Assembly (NCBI RefSeq): GCF_011038965.1
Contig: NZ_JAAKEB010000014.1
Location: 1 to 56,314, forward strand
Length of the DNA: 56,314 bases
Source: Adlercreutzia sp. ZJ141
GTDB lineage: Bacteria > Actinomycetota > Coriobacteriia > Coriobacteriales > Eggerthellaceae
Reading direction: 5' to 3'
The number at the start of each line of letters is the position of its first letter. The first letter of the stretch is position 1. Under the pieces are notes generated by a model. The model worked only from the letters and a program-made list of their open reading frames with translations, ran no database searches and was not told the origin of the DNA. A program made the position numbers and the translations under genes. Positions 6,038-30,702 of this stretch are shown here, piece after piece.

Positions 6038-7816
6038 ATGGCCCAAGGCACCTATGAGAGCGGCATCTACCGTAGGGGCGACGTACGCCTATCCGACTTG
6101 GCCGGGCGCAAAGCGCTACCCATCGGGGTCAGCGACTTCCGTACGGTTCTTAAGAACTACGTATTTGTAGATAAGTCGCTCTTGATCGCCGATGTACTGG
6201 CAACGCCAGGAGCGTCCCTGCTCTTCTGTCGACCTCGCCGTTTCGGCAAGTCGCTCAACTTGAGTATGCTGCAAGCGTTTTTCGAGACAACAATTCCCAG
6301 CATTCCGGGCGTCACCGACACCACGGAGCTTTTTCAGGGCCTGGCCATCTGGGATGCAGAGGACGGGCGCTATCGCGAGCACCACGGAGCCTATCCCGTT
6401 GTGCGCCTTTCGTTCGGAAACACCAAAGGAAATGAATGGAATGAAACGCTGGAGAGCATTCAGGCAAACATAGCCGCCGAGTACGAGCGGCATAACTATC
6501 TAGCCGTAAGCGATGTTCTTTCCGAGCGAGATCAGGAGTTGTTTCTCCAGGTGGCTAGCCGCAACACCTCACAGGGAGTCTGGAGTCGCTCGCTGCTTAC
6601 CCTATGCGAACTTCTGCACAAGCATCACAAAACCCAGGTTGTGGTGCTTATTGACGAATACGACGCACCCGTCATGGCAGGCTACACCTACGGCTACTAC
6701 GATGAGGTGGTTGCCTTCCTCAAGCGATGGCTCACCGGCGCACTGAAGGACAATTCCGCTTTGGCCGTGGGCGTGCTCACTGGCGTACAACGCATTTCCA
6801 AAGAATCCATTTTCTCCGATTTAAATAATCTCATCGTGAGCACGTCGCTCTCCGTGGCATCAGACGAACGCTACGGGTTCACGCAGATGGAAATTGATAC
6901 CCTCGCCTTCTATCGAAACCAGACAGATGGCATAGCCGAGGCGCGCTCTTGGTATGACGGATACCGCTTTGGCAATGTAGACGTCTACAACCCTTGGAGC
7001 GCACTAAACTACTTCAATAGCCAATGTACCGCCGATGTCTACTGGGGAAACACCTCCCGGAACGACATCCTCACGAGCCTCGTACACGATACCGACGACA
7101 AAACGATGAGCGAACTCTACACACTTATGCAACCTGATGGAACTCTCGACAAGGCTATCGACACGAGCATTGTCTTCCCTGATCTCGGTATTCGCCCTGA
7201 AGCCGTATGGTCAATGCTGTATCTTGCAGGATACCTGACCACCAACGACACCAAGCTTCCAAACAACATCAGTCTTTCGCGAGTTCTGCGCATCCCGAAC
7301 CGTGAGGTAGCTCACCTTTTTCGCAGCGACATCATCGAACGATTCTCTTCCATAGCAGGAGATCGCGAGCGTTTGGGACAGCTCCACCGCGCCCTTACGG
7401 AGTGTAAAGACGACGTTGTTGCTAAAGAACTCGAGTGTATTCTGAAAGACAATGCCAGCTACCATGACCTATATCATGAAGCGCCGTACCATACGCTTTT
7501 ACTGGGACTGTTATTTGGAATGAGCGGCTACGAAGACCCCATGTCCAATCGCGAGGCTGGGCACGGTCGATTTGATGTGCGCGTGCAACCGATCAGCCCC
7601 GATCGCGACCCCCTTATAACTATCGAAGCTAAATGGGCCGCCCCCAAAAGCTCCGAGGCAACCAATTTGCCTGCGTTGGCGCAAGCAGCTCTTGCACAAA
7701 TCGAACAACAAGTCTATGAATCAAGTGCTTTTATCGGCGCAGCCGGCACCGTCCGCTGGGGTGTAGCCTTCAGCGGTAAGCACGTCATATGTAAGAGCGA
7801 ACGAGTTGCAAGATAG
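6038..7816 (+). CDS. AAA-ATPase-like protein with C-terminal PD-(D/E)XK nuclease-type domain
   Basis: 592 residues of the family with an N-terminal AAA-ATPase_like domain and a C-terminal PDDEXK_9-type domain. The nucleotide loop reads RPRRFGKS (65-72), Walker B is VLIDEYD near 204-210, and an arginine-containing stretch TGVQRISKESIFSDLNN follows. The C-terminus holds GHGRFDV and ITIEAKW (about 508-533), matching the Asp...Glu-x-Lys catalytic pattern. The start follows GGAAAGGA. A close paralogue lies at 48469-50253. The biological role of the family is not established; binding or cutting nucleic acid and defence against foreign DNA are guesses. It stands alone between direct repeats and terminator-like repeats, suggesting insertion as a cassette. 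Confidence 0.85.
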   Translation: MAQGTYESGIYRRGDVRLSDLAGRKALPIGVSDFRTVLKNYVFVDKSLLIADVLATPGASLLFCRPRRFGKSLNLSMLQAFFETTIPSIPGVTDTTELFQGLAIWDAEDGRYREHHGAYPVVRLSFGNTKGNEWNETLESIQANIAAEYERHNYLAVSDVLSERDQELFLQVASRNTSQGVWSRSLLTLCELLHKHHKTQVVVLIDEYDAPVMAGYTYGYYDEVVAFLKRWLTGALKDNSALAVGVLTGVQRISKESIFSDLNNLIVSTSLSVASDERYGFTQMEIDTLAFYRNQTDGIAEARSWYDGYRFGNVDVYNPWSALNYFNSQCTADVYWGNTSRNDILTSLVHDTDDKTMSELYTLMQPDGTLDKAIDTSIVFPDLGIRPEAVWSMLYLAGYLTTNDTKLPNNISLSRVLRIPNREVAHLFRSDIIERFSSIAGDRERLGQLHRALTECKDDVVAKELECILKDNASYHDLYHEAPYHTLLLGLLFGMSGYEDPMSNREAGHGRFDVRVQPISPDRDPLITIEAKWAAPKSSEATNLPALAQAALAQIEQQVYESSAFIGAAGTVRWGVAFSGKHVICKSERVAR

Positions 7817-8103: not shown

Positions 8104-8131
8104 TTGGCAAAAGCGGCAAGTCTGCTATAGT
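8104..8131 (+). promoter_or_regulatory. trp leader promoter
   Basis: TTGGCA (8104-8109), a 16-base spacer and TATAGT (8126-8131), the latter preceded by TGC as in extended -10 boxes. Transcription would begin near 8138, a few bases before the pairing segment at 8141. Confidence 0.7.
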
Positions 8132-8140
8132 TGGGCGCAT

Positions 8141-8316
8141 CCGATAAACCGACAGGAGAAAAGCTTGTTCGACCATATTGCATACACGCGCGAGGTAACT
8201 GCTCAGGCAGCGCTCTGCGCTGGTGCGTGGTGGTGGTACAAGCGAATATAGGTCGGATTATCGGAAGCTTTCCTTGTGCATGCTTTGAAGCCCCTCGATA
8301 ATCCGAGGGGCTTTTT
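8141..8316 (+). promoter_or_regulatory. Tryptophan transcription attenuator before trpB
   Basis: The terminator is AAGCCCCTCG (8288-8297), loop ATAATC, CGAGGGGCTT (8304-8313), then more T. The competing antiterminator is CGGATTATCG (8254-8263), exactly complementary to CGATAATCCG (8296-8305). The leader peptide stops at 8249-8251, right before the antiterminator strand, and its three Trp codons lie at 8228-8236. A ribosome stalled on Trp codons leaves 8254-8263 free, so trpB is read; a ribosome at the stop codon covers it, so the terminator forms. A third pairing, 8141-8153 with 8252-8264 (12 of 13), could hold the antiterminator strand when the leader is untranslated. Confidence 0.9.
8165..8251 (+). 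CDS. trpL: trp leader peptide with three consecutive Trp codons
   Basis: A 28-residue peptide starting with TTG at 8165-8167, six bases after AGGAG (8154-8158), and ending at TAG 8249-8251. It contains GAWWWYKRI at its C-terminus: three TGG codons in a row at 8228-8236. Its role is to let the ribosome report charged tRNA-Trp to the downstream terminator; the peptide itself probably has no function. The start codon is inferred from the ribosome site; no ATG lies in this frame between the promoter and the Trp codons. Confidence 0.88.
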   Translation: MFDHIAYTREVTAQAALCAGAWWWYKRI

Positions 8317-8436
8317 CGTGTCGGGGAATGCGCGGCGCGAACGCAGGCCAAGAAAGACCTTTGAAACAGCACCGCAAAAACCCGCGATGCGAACCCGCAA
8401 ATGCCGCCTTGCACGGCCGAGTCGAAAGGAACCGTC

Positions 8437-9828
8437 ATGACTGACACCGCCACCGCGCCCTACCGCCTGTACCTGCGCGAGGACCAAATTCCCACCCAAT
8501 GGTATAACCTGCGCGCAGACATGCCCGAATCTCCCGAGCCCATGCGCCTGCCGAACGGCAAGGTGGCCGAACCCGCCGACATCGCACCAGTGTTCTGTGA
8601 CGCATTGGTGGCCCAAGAGCTCGACGACCACACCGCCTATATCGACATTCCCGAGGGCGTGCGCGAAATGTATAAGGTGTACCGCCCGTCGCCATTGTGT
8701 CGTGCCTACAATTTGGAGCAGGCGCTGGGCACCCCCGCGAAAATCTACTACAAGTTCGAAGGCAACAACACGTCAGGTTCACACAAGTTGAACTCGGCAC
8801 TAGCCCAAGCTTACTATGCCAAAGAACAGGATCTTACCCATATCACAACAGAAACAGGCGCCGGCCAATGGGGCACCGCCCTCGCCGAGGCGGCCGCGCA
8901 CTACGGACTCAACCTGGATGTATTCATGGTGAAGTGCTCTTACGAACAGAAGCCCTTCCGTCGCAACATCATGGAAACCTTCGACGCCACCGTAACCCCC
9001 TCGCCCTCCAACACCACCGAAGTAGGGCGGCGTATGTTGCAGGAAAACCCCAACTCCTCGGGGTCGCTTGGCACCGCTATCTCCGAGGCCGTGGAGCGCG
9101 CCTTGAACATTCCCGGAAACAAGGGCCGCTATCAGCTGGGCAGCGTGCTGAACCAGGTGTGCCTGCATCAATCCATCATCGGCCTGGAAAGCTATACCGC
9201 CATGGAAGAGCTGGGCGAATACCCCGATATGGTCATCGGTTGCGCGGGCGGCGGCTCCAACTTAGCTGGCCTTATTGCTCCTTTCATGCGCGACAAGCTC
9301 AACGGTACTCACCCCAACACCGAATTCATTGCCGTTGAGCCCGCTAGCTGCCCGAGCCTTTCCCGCGGCAAGTACGCCTACGACTACGCTGACACCGGCC
9401 GCACCTGCCCTCTGGTGAAGATGTACACCCTGGGCAACGGATTCTTGCCTAGCCCCGATCACGCAGGCGGTCTGCGCTACCACGGCATGAGCCCGATCAT
9501 TTCCAAGCTGAAGCACGACGGCTATCTGGACGCCCGCGCCGTGCGCCAAACCGATGTGTTTGCCGCTGCCGAAGAGTTCGCACGCCTGGAAACCATTCTG
9601 CCCGCACCCGAGAGTGCCCATGCTATCTATGTTGCTATAGAAGAAGCGAAGAAGTGTGCTGAAACCGGCGAAGAGAAAGTAATCTTGTTCGGTCTCACGG
9701 GAACGGGCTACTTCGACATGTACGCCTACGACGCCTTCAACAAGGGCATAATGAGCGACCATATCCCCACCGACAAGGAACTGGAAGCAGGATTTGCCAC
9801 CATTCCCTCTATTCCCGGGGTGCAATAA
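8437..9828 (+). CDS. trpB: Tryptophan synthase beta chain, TrpB2 type
   Basis: A 463-residue pyridoxal-phosphate enzyme making tryptophan from indole and serine. The lysine that binds the cofactor is Lys117 in EGNNTSGSHKLNSA; TETGAGQWG (138-146) and the phosphate loop GGGSN (271-275) follow. Length and sequence resemble the TrpB2 branch rather than the shorter TrpB1 that forms the classical complex. No trpA lies next to it, so it may work on free indole, which fits an indole-rich gut; this last point is inference. The ATG at 8437 follows AAAGGA. Control is by the attenuator upstream. Confidence 0.95.
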   Translation: MTDTATAPYRLYLREDQIPTQWYNLRADMPESPEPMRLPNGKVAEPADIAPVFCDALVAQELDDHTAYIDIPEGVREMYKVYRPSPLCRAYNLEQALGTPAKIYYKFEGNNTSGSHKLNSALAQAYYAKEQDLTHITTETGAGQWGTALAEAAAHYGLNLDVFMVKCSYEQKPFRRNIMETFDATVTPSPSNTTEVGRRMLQENPNSSGSLGTAISEAVERALNIPGNKGRYQLGSVLNQVCLHQSIIGLESYTAMEELGEYPDMVIGCAGGGSNLAGLIAPFMRDKLNGTHPNTEFIAVEPASCPSLSRGKYAYDYADTGRTCPLVKMYTLGNGFLPSPDHAGGLRYHGMSPIISKLKHDGYLDARAVRQTDVFAAAEEFARLETILPAPESAHAIYVAIEEAKKCAETGEEKVILFGLTGTGYFDMYAYDAFNKGIMSDHIPTDKELEAGFATIPSIPGVQ

Positions 9829-27078: not shown

Positions 27079-27837
27079 CTACAGGATGATCGCCACCACG
27101 AACAGAGCAAAGCACGCCACGATCATGATGAAATCAGCTAAAGCAAATGCGTGCTTCTTCCAGGCACTCGTACGCGTGCGCAGGTTGAACCCGCGCAGCT
27201 CGGCCGCCACAGCAATGGCGTCAGTACGCTTCACCGACGATATGAGCAGCGGCACGCACAACGGCACCATGAGCGCAATTCGCTTCACCACGTTGCCCGT
27301 GTCAAACCGCACACCACGCGCCTTCTGAGCCTCCATGATGGCCGACATCTCATCCATGAACACGGGAATGAAGCGAATTGCGGTGGTAACGGTGAACGCA
27401 TACTTATACGGCAGGTGCCATTTCCCCACCAGCTCGTTGGTAAGGTCGTTGATCTGGGTGGTCATAAACGCAATGGACAGCGGCAACACCATGCACACCA
27501 CTTTGAGCACCACGAGCACACCGCTGAGCAGGCCCTCGTCGGTAATCATGAACCACCCCGCCTGGACAAGCGGGGTGCCCGTACGTACGCACAACACCTG
27601 CAGCACCAGCACGATAAGCGCAAGCGAGCCAAGCGCGGTAACTAGCTTCGCACAGGGTTTGAAGCAGCCACAGATTGCCGCCACGATAAGCTGTGCCACA
27701 ATGAGCGCCAGCACGTATGCGTGATTACCGCAAACGGCTGCACCCACGCACACCGCAAACGCTGCAACCAACTTGGTGAGCGGATGCATCCGATGGAGAA
27801 AACTCTCGCCTGGAATGTAGGAAAACACGCTATCCAT
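27079..27837 (-). CDS. ecfT: ECF transporter transmembrane component EcfT
   Basis: 252 residues with four to five membrane helices and the coupling motif near ELRGFNLRTRTSAWKK, which docks on the two ATPases. Energy-coupling-factor transporters import vitamins and similar micronutrients. The ATG at 27835-27837 follows AGGTGAG and lies one base past the upstream ATPase stop. It is the last of four genes that make a complete dedicated transporter (S, A, A', T). Confidence 0.9.
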   Translation of the reverse strand: MDSVFSYIPGESFLHRMHPLTKLVAAFAVCVGAAVCGNHAYVLALIVAQLIVAAICGCFKPCAKLVTALGSLALIVLVLQVLCVRTGTPLVQAGWFMITDEGLLSGVLVVLKVVCMVLPLSIAFMTTQINDLTNELVGKWHLPYKYAFTVTTAIRFIPVFMDEMSAIMEAQKARGVRFDTGNVVKRIALMVPLCVPLLISSVKRTDAIAVAAELRGFNLRTRTSAWKKHAFALADFIMIVACFALFVVAIIL

Positions 27838-27838
27838 A

Positions 27839-28825
27839 CTACTCACCTGCCTTGCATTCGAATGTTTCGCCAGATGAGGCAACAGCTTCGCCACCGGCGA
27901 GCGTGGCGATGGCGCTCGCCAACTCGTCGGCACAGAACTTGCCGCCAAGCTGCGGATAATCCTTCGCCAGCTGCGTTGACAGCTCGCAGATCTGCGGCGG
28001 AATCAGCGAAGCACGCTGTAAGGTATCGCGCTCGGAGAACACATCGCGCGGCGTACCATCGAGCAGCACACGACCTTCCGCAAGCACGATTGCTCGGCTG
28101 GCGAAATCGAGTACCACTTCCATGTCGTGACACACCATGACCACCGTGGCACCCGCTTCGTTCATGCGCTTAATATGGGTCATCATCTCCATGCACTCGC
28201 TGTAGTCAAACCCAGTGGTGGGCTCGTCGAGCAGCAGCACACAGGGATCAACCGCGATCAGACCCGCCAAAGCAACGGCTTGGCGCTGACCACGCGACAG
28301 GTTGAACGGATCGGCGTCTCCATCAAGGTGCAACAGCTCGAGCACCTCGTCGGCGCGCGCTTTCTGCTGCTCTGCCGTACCACACTGCAGCGCGCGCAAA
28401 CCAAACAGCACTTCGTCGTAAACGGTGTTCTGGCAGATCTGCCGGTCGGGGTTTTGAAACAGAAAGCCCACATGGCGCGCAATATCGCTCACCTTCGCCT
28501 CGGCAGTGTCGAGACCGCATACCCGCACGTGCCCAGAAGCTGGAGCAAGTAGCCCGTCGGCAAGGCGCAGTATGGTCGATTTGCCGGTCCCGTTTGGCCC
28601 GAGCACAGCTACAAACTCGCCCGGCTGTATGCGGAAGCTGATACCACGCAGCACCTCGGCTTCTGCATATCCGAAGTGCACGTCGGAGAATTCGATGACA
28701 GGTTTTTGGTCTGCACCTTCGATGCTAGGCGCGCAGACACCGGCAAGCGAACAGGATGATTCTACGGATTCCTCGGCCACCTGTGTCCGCACGGCGGGCG
28801 CGGCTTTCTTCTCGAATAGGCTCAC
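27839..28825 (-). CDS. ecfA: ECF transporter ATP-binding protein (second)
   Basis: 328 residues. After about 40 extra N-terminal residues come Walker A GPNGTGKS (76-83), the Q-loop FLFQNPDRQICQNTV, signature LSRGQRQAVALAG and Walker B VLLLDEP. The start is GTG, overlapping the upstream stop as GTGA and seven bases after GGAGG. The signature has Arg where LSGGQ is usual, as often seen in one of the two ECF ATPases. It should pair with the next gene as a heterodimer. Confidence 0.92.
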   Translation of the reverse strand: MSLFEKKAAPAVRTQVAEESVESSCSLAGVCAPSIEGADQKPVIEFSDVHFGYAEAEVLRGISFRIQPGEFVAVLGPNGTGKSTILRLADGLLAPASGHVRVCGLDTAEAKVSDIARHVGFLFQNPDRQICQNTVYDEVLFGLRALQCGTAEQQKARADEVLELLHLDGDADPFNLSRGQRQAVALAGLIAVDPCVLLLDEPTTGFDYSECMEMMTHIKRMNEAGATVVMVCHDMEVVLDFASRAIVLAEGRVLLDGTPRDVFSERDTLQRASLIPPQICELSTQLAKDYPQLGGKFCADELASAIATLAGGEAVASSGETFECKAGE

Positions 28826-29658
28826 GACAGCACCTCCTTCACGTAACTGCAAGCGTCGGCGACCGTTGCCACCACGCGTCCGTCACCAACGCCGCGTTCG
28901 GTCATGCGGTCGCACAGTGTCGCCACGCGAGGGCAGTTGATACCAATTCGCTCCATATCCTTATAGCGGCGCAGCACGTCGGCAACTGTCCCTTCAAGCA
29001 CGATGCGACCTTTGTCCATAACCGCGATGCGCGCTGCGTACTCACACAGCAACATAACCTTCTGTTCGACGACGACAACCGTCACGCCGTGCTGGTTAAG
29101 CTCGCGCAGCACGTCGAAAATCTGCCGACTTGACACCGGATCGAGCTCACCAGTAGGCTCATCGAGCAAGATAACATCGGGTCTTAAAGCAAGAATTGCT
29201 GCAATGGCAACCTTTTGCTTCTGCCCACCGGAAAGCGTCGCGATGCGCCGATTGCGCAGGTCGGGAATACCCACCGCTTCGAGCGCCTGCAACATGCGAC
29301 CTTCTATTTGGTCGTGTGGCACACCGAAGTTTTCAAGTCCAAACAGCAGCTCATCTTCGACCACGGCAGCCACCATTTGGCTGTCAATATCTTGACTCAC
29401 CGTGCCGATGACAAGCGACAGATCGGAAAGCTGTGCGTCGAACGTATCAACGCCGTCCACTTCGACCGATCCGAAGTAGTCACCATGATAATGATGCGGA
29501 ATAAGCCCGTTGATAGCTGATGTCAGTGTGGTCTTGCCCGCACCACTTTCCCCAATGATTCCGAGGAAGTCGCCTTTTTTTACATGAAGTGTCACATCTT
29601 TGAGCGCCGGCGCGCTTCCATGCTCATACGTGAACGACAAGTTGTTTACCTTGATCAC
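28822..29658 (-). CDS. ecfA: ECF transporter ATP-binding protein (first)
   Basis: 278 residues with Walker A GESGAGKT (36-43), LSGGQKQKVAIAAILAL and the Walker B VILLDEPTGELDP. The start codon is GTG at 29656-29658, behind GGGAAAGGG. It follows the S-component gene by 40 bases and overlaps the second ATPase by four. Together they energise uptake by the TrpP-like S subunit and EcfT. Confidence 0.92.
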   Translation of the reverse strand: MIKVNNLSFTYEHGSAPALKDVTLHVKKGDFLGIIGESGAGKTTLTSAINGLIPHHYHGDYFGSVEVDGVDTFDAQLSDLSLVIGTVSQDIDSQMVAAVVEDELLFGLENFGVPHDQIEGRMLQALEAVGIPDLRNRRIATLSGGQKQKVAIAAILALRPDVILLDEPTGELDPVSSRQIFDVLRELNQHGVTVVVVEQKVMLLCEYAARIAVMDKGRIVLEGTVADVLRRYKDMERIGINCPRVATLCDRMTERGVGDGRVVATVADACSYVKEVLS

Positions 29659-29698
29659 GCGCTTCCCTTTCCCAACGTCGGAGCCGATTGTCGTAAGA

Positions 29699-30271
29699 CT
29701 ACTGGCGCTTCAATGCGCGCAGCAACGGAATGATAAGAATTTGCACCAAAACGGTGTTGATGACGGCGGTAATCACCACAATGGGAGCGAACTGAATCAG
29801 ACCAGCCATAACGTCCATACTCTTTACTACCACCACGATGGCCGAGAATACGCTACCTGACACGAACGTACCCAAAAACGTACCCACAGCAGGGCGGAAG
29901 TCAAACGACTTCGGCGTTGGCAAACCCGCAATAGCACCGATGACGATGCCGCCGAGCAACTCTGACACAAAGTTTACGAACGGTGTGCCACACAGAAGCG
30001 GAATCTGGCAGATGGCGGCGGCAAGCAAGCCGATGATGGCACCGTACATGGCTCCCTGACCTGGGTTGCTCGGACGAATGAGCAGCACCGCCAAGCAGTA
30101 CGACGCAATAACGAAGTTCGGCTTCACGCCACCCTGAAACATCATGCCCACCACAAGCTTCAGAACCGCACCAGCCGCAAGCAGCACCGCCACTAACACC
30201 AGATCGCTGATGTCTAAGCCCTTCTTCTTGCCAGTGTTTTTCATCTCTCGCTTTTGCGCAACGTTTTCCAT
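29699..30271 (-). CDS. TrpP-like substrate-binding (S) component of an ECF transporter, probable tryptophan uptake
   Basis: 190 residues with six hydrophobic helices. The stretch GGVKPNFVIASYCLAVLLIR, then GAIIGLLAAAICQIP and the later PFVNFVSELLGGIVIG, resembles the tryptophan transporter TrpP of Firmicutes in order and wording (GGMKPD.., ..QIPN..). Above it sits a T-box with a UGG specifier, so tryptophan is the best substrate guess; this rests on motif memory and context. The ATG at 30269-30271 follows AGGTGGAAACT. A longer in-frame extension would run into the T-box terminator and is rejected. Confidence 0.8.
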   Translation of the reverse strand: MENVAQKREMKNTGKKKGLDISDLVLVAVLLAAGAVLKLVVGMMFQGGVKPNFVIASYCLAVLLIRPSNPGQGAMYGAIIGLLAAAICQIPLLCGTPFVNFVSELLGGIVIGAIAGLPTPKSFDFRPAVGTFLGTFVSGSVFSAIVVVVKSMDVMAGLIQFAPIVVITAVINTVLVQILIIPLLRALKRQ

Positions 30272-30339
30272 AGTTTCCACCTTTCCCTTCTGGCCGCTTA
30301 CAGCGCTTCCCGCGCAGCTTCGCCCATCGTTCTGCCCAC

Positions 30340-30628
30340 AAAAAAAGACCTGTCCTTCGCTTCCAAAGGACAGGTCTTCAAACCTGCGGTGCCACCTTTG
30401 CTTGACCCTTTCGGGCCCTCTCATGAGCGAGCCATCACCCGCTCTGCCTTTAACGCAGGCTCACGGTCCAGATACTCAGCCGGAACCGCTCCGCAACGCG
30501 CTTGGAGGCTCCAACTTTTCCCCTTTCCCTCGGCGATCCATTTGCCATCCAGCATTTCTGCGGGAATCTCAGCTGCACCCGCTCTCTGTGAGCGCTTATG
30601 ATGGTTTAACCTTCGCCTCATCGGTTTC
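30340..30628 (-). promoter_or_regulatory. T-box riboswitch with Trp specifier, controlling the ECF operon
   Basis: Minus strand. The T-box core AAAGGTGGCACCGCAGG lies at 30384-30400. It is followed by the terminator AAGACCTGTCCTT...AAGGACAGGTCTT and T run (30340-30378). Stem I is recognisable from AGAGAGCGGGTGCAGCTGAG (about 30572-30587 region). The basal helix GGCGA (30613-30617) pairs with TCGCC (30532-30536), and immediately above it on the 3' side is TGG-A: specifier UGG at 30538-30540. Uncharged tRNA-Trp would favour read-through into the transporter genes. A weak TAATAC -10 (near 30641-30646) lies upstream. Confidence 0.9.
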
Positions 30629-30702
30629 AAAGGTATTAAGTTGTGGCCGAAACTCTAACACAGCAAAACGAGCCGCGCAAGGTACTTTTTCTAGCGCTTT
30701 TT

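Follow-up and report, generated by a model that had tools for sequence, protein, structure and literature searches.

A tryptophan leader attenuator predicted upstream of a standalone trpB2 gene in Adlercreutzia and other Coriobacteriales

The trpB2 locus of Adlercreutzia sp. ZJ141

The window, a stretch of 56,314 nucleotides from Adlercreutzia sp. ZJ141 (contig NZ_JAAKEB010000014.1), carries on its forward strand a standalone gene, trpB2 (8437-9828), for a tryptophan synthase beta-like enzyme of the PLP-dependent family. The gene product exceeds the cut-offs of both TrpB2-type NCBIfam models (NF009057, 652 bits with a cut-off of 366; TIGR01415, 557 bits with a cut-off of 519) and is the sole full TrpB2 match in its own genome. 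Upstream of the gene and on the same strand, a whole switch can be read from the sequence within 8104-8316, comprising a promoter-like site, a leader ORF and an antiterminator/terminator pair. The upstream neighbour (6038-7816, forward strand) encodes a protein with AAA-ATPase_like and PDDEXK_9 matches in Pfam and has no evident link to tryptophan.

The promoter-like site (8104-8131) consists of a −35 element, TTGGCA (8104-8109), and a −10 element, TATAGT (8126-8131), separated by a 16-nt spacer. Ten of its 12 letters agree with the consensus, and the transcript would start near 8138. A Shine-Dalgarno sequence, AGGAG (8154-8158), precedes a leader ORF of 28 codons (8165-8251), for which TTG (8165-8167) is the putative start codon and TAG (8249-8251) the stop codon; three adjacent TGG codons occupy 8228-8236. 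The promoter, the ribosome site, the length of the leader and its Trp codons are read here just as the original prediction had described them.

The alternative helices of the leader share their strands. Region 2 (8252-8265) has two alternative partners. One is region 1 (8140-8153), a candidate anti-antiterminator that precedes the ribosome site of the leader; the other, for the stretch 8253-8263, is region 3 (8296-8306), with which it forms an antiterminator of 11 perfect pairs. Region 3 is in turn part of the stem and loop of the terminator hairpin (3:4, 8288-8316), in which 8288-8297 pairs with 8304-8313 and the T run lies at 8312-8316. The antiterminator and the terminator are mutually exclusive, and the terminator stem is 10 bp long, both as predicted; the antiterminator, for which 10 bp had also been given, has 11. 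In the folded 1:2 structure, the Shine-Dalgarno sequence is unpaired, and an inner helix connects 8163-8168, over the leader start codon, with 8238-8243, directly 3′ of the Trp codons. Assuming the usual footprint, a ribosome on the leader stop codon would cover region 2, and one stalled at the Trp codons would mask the 3′ arm of the inner helix.

The predicted fold of 8130-8330 has an energy of −95.1 kcal/mol compared with −65.5 kcal/mol for shuffled sequences (z = −6.7), and none of 200 shuffles was as good. The promoter-like site is weak evidence when taken alone, with one such site seen in 3 kb and 1.0 expected from shuffles; a −10-like hexamer, counted raw with ten accepted variants, is similarly placed in 26 of 36 leaders. 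The window terminator was missing from the output of a simple terminator scan, probably because the T run overlaps the stem. None of the Rfam covariance models, the tryptophan attenuator families included, matched the leader at E ≤ 1, and the T-box model RF00230 gave no match at 8104-8316. Conservation in relatives, described below, is a stronger argument against chance than these window statistics, and we regard the observation of a Trp leader attenuator at 8104-8316 as confirmed.

The genome that contains the window (2.29 Mb in 57 contigs, estimated to be 98.6% complete) gave no match for trpA (TIGR00262) or for indole glycerol phosphate (IGP) synthase (PF00218), both of which were detected in 14 of 14 control genomes. 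Tryptophanase (TIGR02617), detected in four of the 14 controls, E. coli among them, was likewise not found. These three genes could sit in an unassembled part of the genome, and the organism appears incapable of de novo tryptophan synthesis. The failure to find them fits indole salvage, as had been proposed, and the earlier description of a single TrpB2-type gene with no trpA nearby can be widened to the whole assembled genome. The organism belongs with the Eggerthellaceae, in agreement with the coriobacterial origin first suggested. In this family, 55 of 138 genomes have a TrpB2 match at E ≤ 1e-50; trpA is over its cut-off in 29 and IGP synthase in 25, and many of these genomes are incomplete. 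Where a leader adjoins trpB2, trpA is found in 2 of 29 genomes (G044 and G131) and IGP synthase in one (G131); where a T-box precedes trpB2, trpA is found in 2 of 17 (G073 and G128). Both genomes whose trpB2 has neither a leader nor a T-box (G136 and G137; loci L090 and L089, respectively) possess trpA and IGP synthase, and 21 of the 83 genomes without a TrpB2 match at this threshold possess trpA.

Conservation and co-evolution of the leader

The sequences upstream of trpB2 were read in 49 of the 55 family genomes, the present one included (G031, G032, G033, G035, G036 and G130 were left out). Second trpB2 copies in G017 (C28, L128, with only 125 bases) and G073 (C78, L274) are outside this count. 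A Trp leader adjoins trpB2 in 29 genomes, a further leader is displaced, 17 genomes have a T-box and two have neither. The adjoining leaders contain three consecutive Trp codons (WWW) in 28 cases and two (WW) in G044. The displaced leader, in G069 (L214/L104), has its terminator separated from trpB2 by an insertion of ∼1.3 kb, which has inverted sequences at its ends and is probably a mobile element.

A total of 36 leader loci including the window were aligned, 35 of them from the Trp codons on; some are Collinsella, Olsenella and Atopobium records, which came from the best 80 matches of a contig scan. WWW is kept in 33 of the 36 leaders and two Trp codons in the remaining three, and a hairpin is predicted just 5′ of the T run in every one. 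A covariance model spanning the Trp codons to the terminator (R1, threshold E ≤ 1e-7) has hits in 78 of 395 Coriobacteriales genomes, distributed over four family groups. Outside the family of Adlercreutzia, there were 45 matches, of which 40 loci were fetched, some being records already present among the earlier leader loci; G231, G233, G239, G249 and G250 are not part of the next-gene count. The gene following the leader at these 40 loci encodes TrpB2 in 35 (two partial), an ECF S component in four and another protein in one. At L225 and L226, the trpB2 sequence 3′ of the leader matches only in part, and the gene there may be broken.

Within the family, the R1 search yielded 20 fetched loci, four of which were dropped as chance: L211-L213 are, by eye, apparent tRNA genes followed by terminators, and L208 is without a Trp run. 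The next gene at the other 16 encodes an ECF S component in three (G010, G011 and G012), an NSS symporter in eight and another protein in five. Similar WWW leaders with weaker pairing and no trpB2 match occur at L198, L206 and L210 (G068, G062 and G066); two of them precede an ABC ATPase, and they may be orphaned or re-used leaders. A second R1 match in the genome of the window (G000 C53:139388-139490, E = 1.3e-6) was rejected as chance. Its neighbours, identified by eye, are the apparent end of an S9 protein gene and an apparent glutamine synthetase III gene, and the search for a leader start in the Trp frame gave none.

Covariation is clearest in the terminator, where 96.9% of 350 cells are paired, double changes are present in 6 of 10 pairs (45 cells) and none of 500 shuffles scored as high. 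The search for covarying pairs and conserved Trp codons, which had been suggested as a check on the original prediction, came out in its favor. In the same kind of column count, 82.8% of the cells of the 2:3 antiterminator are paired (0 of 500 shuffles), with only two double-change cells; it rises above the shuffles on two of five measures and not on the other three.

Pairing was also compared in a swap test, in which the pairing energy of each species' own segments is set against that of partners exchanged among species. With all 36 leaders, none of 20,000 permutations was as good as the true partners for 1:2, and the same was observed for 2:3. For 23 representatives, hand-picked at about one per similarity cluster so that kinship is reduced though some remains, the energies were −18.6 versus −15.3 kcal/mol for 1:2 and −22.2 versus −18.1 kcal/mol for 2:3, with 0 of 50,000 permutations as good in either case. 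The controls in these representatives showed no signal, with 44,948 (1:3), 32,835 (upstream:2) and 14,379 (ORF:2) of 50,000 as good. A second set of 19 leaders, including transporter leaders, gave 0 of 50,000 for 1:2 and 14 of 50,000 for 2:3, again with no signal for 1:3 (48,262 of 50,000). For the inner helix, the values were 7 of 50,000 (23 leaders) and 1 of 50,000 (18 leaders).

For the second set, 31 of 56 matched loci were entered. A start codon was obtained for 30 of them, and 19 remained after the removal of near-duplicates and of leaders whose target is not known; one of the 19, L230, and L008 of the first set are a single record. Leader start codons were picked by hand or by a simple Shine-Dalgarno score. 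The terminator was misplaced by the script in L226 and L201, both of which were kept in the second-set swap test, and L226 also in the folding of 49 leaders described below. Judged by these comparisons, region 1 co-evolves with region 2. One leader, L109, has kept the leader and terminator with a weak 1:2. Sequence and its comparison establish the anatomy of the leader, its conservation, the covariation of the terminator and the co-evolution of 1:2, as well as the failure to find trpA and IGP synthase.

T-boxes, transporters, and exchange of regulators

All 17 T-boxes upstream of trpB2 in the family match RF00230; two reach the gathering score, and the other 15 score 44-90 bits. At the specifier place, which we take to be the 3′ side of stem I in the T-box alignment, UGG is found in 19 of 19 aligned T-boxes (the 17 from the family plus L010 and L017 from named contigs), and in two of the 19 the specifier reads UGGCCC. 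On its face, the existence of relatives that keep trpB2 without the paired segments and Trp codons (17 with a T-box, two with neither) runs against the original prediction, but the UGG specifier of the T-boxes that replace the leader suggests that the signal, tRNA-Trp, is the same.

A T-box with UGG at the specifier place is also present in the window itself, on the reverse strand at 30363-30630 (RF00230, 55.7 bits; gathering score 93). It precedes the ECF S component (29699-30424) of a group of ECF-type transporter genes on the same strand (27079-30424), whose ATPases (28822-29658 and 27839-28852) and CbiQ-type T component (27079-27948) were recognized in Pfam. The S component has no PF17099 match; it is 51% identical to the TrpP-like protein of L195, which scores 36.6 bits with Pfam TrpP and exceeds the cut-off of 27.2. 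Two relatives that group with the Olsenella and Atopobium records remain below this cut-off at 17 bits. Both NSS proteins that were scanned pass PF00209. Among the 30 ECF gene loci given of 92 carrier genomes, 26 have a T-box motif and four a WWW leader, classified by motif only. In other Coriobacteriales, WWW leaders precede ECF S components at seven loci and NSS-family symporters at eight (together L195, L196, L197, L224, L227, L244, L245, L199-L203, L205, L207 and L209). Family, homology and regulator suggest that these ECF and NSS proteins are Trp transporters. We place the leader in a wider regulon for Trp acquisition, in which T-boxes also take part. Other T-box matches in the genome of the window, at G000 C11:194387-194577 and C56:83491-83889 (L132 and L133), lie before apparent ilvD and pheS genes, named by eye.

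In a quick tree of 70 TrpB2 proteins, the regulator states (leader, T-box or neither) require at least five changes outside the clostridial set, one of which is a loss in L089/L090. Leaders at L109 and at L239/L012/L013 fall within T-box groups, outside the large leader clade. Support is weak for several branches of this tree, which does not prove the direction of change; upstream regions may have recombined. In Clostridia, 64 upstream regions were classified by motif as having a T-box core (42), neither regulator (20, two with fewer than 400 bases of sequence) or a WW ORF (two, which look spurious), so that no convincing Trp leader was present by motif among them.

Folding states, proposed mechanism, and alternatives

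Ribosome footprints and the extent of RNA exposed were assumed in all folding-state models. With the window RNA exposed to 8306 and no ribosome bound, the probabilities of 1:2 and 2:3 are 0.91 and 0.07. Once a ribosome is held at the first Trp codon, they reverse to 0.06 and 0.89, and the addition of a second ribosome on the start codon gives 0.00 and 0.97. With the ribosome at the stop codon, both are 0. Once the RNA is exposed to 8308 or further, 2:3 survives solely in the state with a second ribosome over region 1, and at 8310 and beyond it is gone. This loss at equilibrium indicates that the opportunity for the antiterminator is short and that the outcome must be kinetic.

A second folding set-up covered 49 leaders, 32 from the first 36 and 17 from the other 30. 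When the ribosome is stalled, 2:3 exceeds 1:2 in 38 leaders and not in the other 11; the window itself is a near tie, with 9.8 pairs in 1:2 and 7.8 in 2:3. With a second, initiating ribosome in addition, 2:3 exceeds 1:2 in 48 of 49, L012 being near zero on both. A ribosome at the stop codon leaves 2:3 below half in 47 of 49 leaders and, within these models and their assumed footprint, bears out the prediction that the position of the leader stop allows the antiterminator to be masked.

Taken together, the leader is best interpreted as a ribosome-mediated transcription attenuator that senses charged tRNA-Trp and controls a single trpB2 for the salvage of environmental indole, an interpretation to which we give a probability of roughly 0.87. 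The read-through response, the stall sites, the off role of 1:2 and the substrate of the enzyme are what we infer. When tryptophan is ample, the leading ribosome would clear the three Trp codons, halt at 8249-8251 and mask region 2, upon which the 3:4 terminator would form and transcription would stop before trpB2. When tryptophan is short, the ribosome would stall on 8228-8236, leaving region 2 free and disrupting the inner helix on which the 1:2 stem relies for support; the free region 2 could then pair with region 3 and permit read-through into trpB2. TrpB2 would then make tryptophan from indole and serine (or phosphoserine). If the leader is left untranslated, region 2 may be held by the 1:2 stem, which is rooted immediately upstream of the ribosome site, and the gene kept off.

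The resemblance to enterobacterial trp attenuators, which the original prediction pointed out, holds for the general parts when E. coli trpL is compared. In both, a short leader ORF ends soon after tandem Trp codons, the helices 1:2, 2:3 and 3:4 compete, the terminator has a U tract and the stop codon allows masking of region 2. The location of region 1 5′ of the leader ORF, in contrast, is not the enterobacterial layout. E. coli K-12 trpL, folded as a yardstick, has region 1 inside the ORF and the Trp codons within region 1 (Trp codons at nt 54-59, ORF at 27-71, numbered from the transcript start); 2:3 forms when the ribosome is stalled (RNA to nt 120-130) and is not formed when it is at the stop codon. 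There, the stalled ribosome itself frees region 2 because the Trp codons are inside region 1, whereas in the window region 1 (8140-8153) lies 5′ of the leader Shine-Dalgarno sequence, distant from the Trp codons at 8228-8236, and the ORF is in the loop of the 1:2 stem. The targets differ as well, being one likely salvage gene here and a biosynthetic operon in E. coli. Tentatively, and at slightly less than even odds, we propose that this is a distinct layout of the Coriobacteriales, in which the anti-antiterminator is rooted upstream of the ribosome site of the leader and the switch thereby senses the initiation of leader translation as well as stalling at the Trp codons. As proposed, it would control a Trp-acquisition regulon of indole-salvage trpB2, a TrpP-like ECF importer and a Na+ symporter, with repeated replacement between T-box and leader at the same genes.

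The part played by 1:2 is where another explanation deserves most weight. The leader may be an ordinary 2:3 versus 3:4 attenuator in which 1:2 is incidental and region 1 merely resembles region 3. Regions 1 and 3 do resemble each other because both complement region 2. In the second set-up, ribosome-free folding prefers 1:2 over 2:3 in just 23 of 49 leaders, so that the third pairing of the original prediction, upheld as a co-evolving helix, has the default-off role in fewer than half of the leaders in these models. Tested against letter-shuffled versions of region 1, 1:2 stands out in 17 of the 36 leaders (matched by no more than 5 of 100 shuffles), the window with 0 of 100, and is unremarkable in 19, the worst being L013 with 83 of 100. 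We nevertheless consider an incidental 1:2 unlikely, at well under even odds, given that own partners beat swapped ones in two sets of leaders, that the inner helix, in which region 3 takes no part, also beats swaps and that other upstream or ORF segments show no such fit to region 2.

More improbable is a real attenuator whose TrpB2 has a different function, serine deamination for example, and salvages indole only as a side activity, if at all. Such a role was once proposed for TrpB2 according to PMC1854888, where the TrpB2_o enzymes are also described as poor deaminases. The Trp codons of the leader, the UGG T-boxes and the leaders common to likely Trp importers all point to tryptophan as the product, and exogenous indole is used by TrpB enzymes elsewhere, according to PMC11085991. 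That the terminator is decayed or due to chance, and the ORF random, can be practically dismissed: the promoter match alone is at the chance level, and the WWW leaders of L198, L206 and L210 indicate that leaders can outlive the gene, but the z score of −6.7, the matches in four family groups of the order and the covariation of the terminator all speak against it. The attenuator controlling trpB2 for indole salvage thus remains the preferred interpretation.

Among known systems, trp attenuators have been predicted in Corynebacterium and Streptomyces (Seliverstov et al., 2005; PMC1262725), including a candidate before trpB2A in C. diphtheriae. As far as the portions consulted show, they resemble the window leader in that the peptides, from actinobacteria, have two or three Trp codons and the terminators are GC-rich; unlike the window leader, they serve trp biosynthetic operons or trpS, and their conserved antiterminator letters differ from those found here. 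The genome list seen in that paper names no Coriobacteriia, and its alignment covers the Trp codons to the terminator, so that a 5′ region 1 is not shown there. In the open-licence literature, with subscription papers mostly outside its scope, no description of this leader in Coriobacteriia was found; PMC9413887 and PMC3766115, in the parts consulted, concern other regulons. T-boxes have been reported for a Dehalococcoides trpB-like gene, and a Trp T-box for an NSS transporter of the Bacillus cereus group (PMC2494555), which means that T-box links to trpB-like and NSS genes were already known.

The TrpB2 groups are defined by Merkl (2007; PMC1854888), and trpB2 of the window resembles TrpB2_o, as characterized there, in lying outside any trp operon, a likeness of genomic context. 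According to the same paper, 14 of 16 TrpB2_o proteins come from species that also have an operon trpB1, whereas trpA and IGP synthase were not found here. Use of indole by bifidobacteria is described in PMC11085991, which also cites indole salvage by TrpB1 and TrpB2 of Thermococcus.

The leader Trp codons and the UGG T-boxes of relatives tie a non-operon TrpB2 to tryptophan supply, in bacteria where trpA and IGP synthase were mostly not found. A prediction that follows is that these actinobacteria, several of which are known from gut samples, use the indole of their neighbours when tryptophan is scarce. The Trp T-box (RF00230) and the leader have the same expected input, the charging of tRNA-Trp, the same expected output and the same targets in relatives. 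The T-box, in contrast, binds the tRNA directly and needs no leader translation, while the window leader would be read by a ribosome. The presence on orthologous genes of two RNA sensors for one and the same tRNA allows the two mechanisms to be compared in nature.
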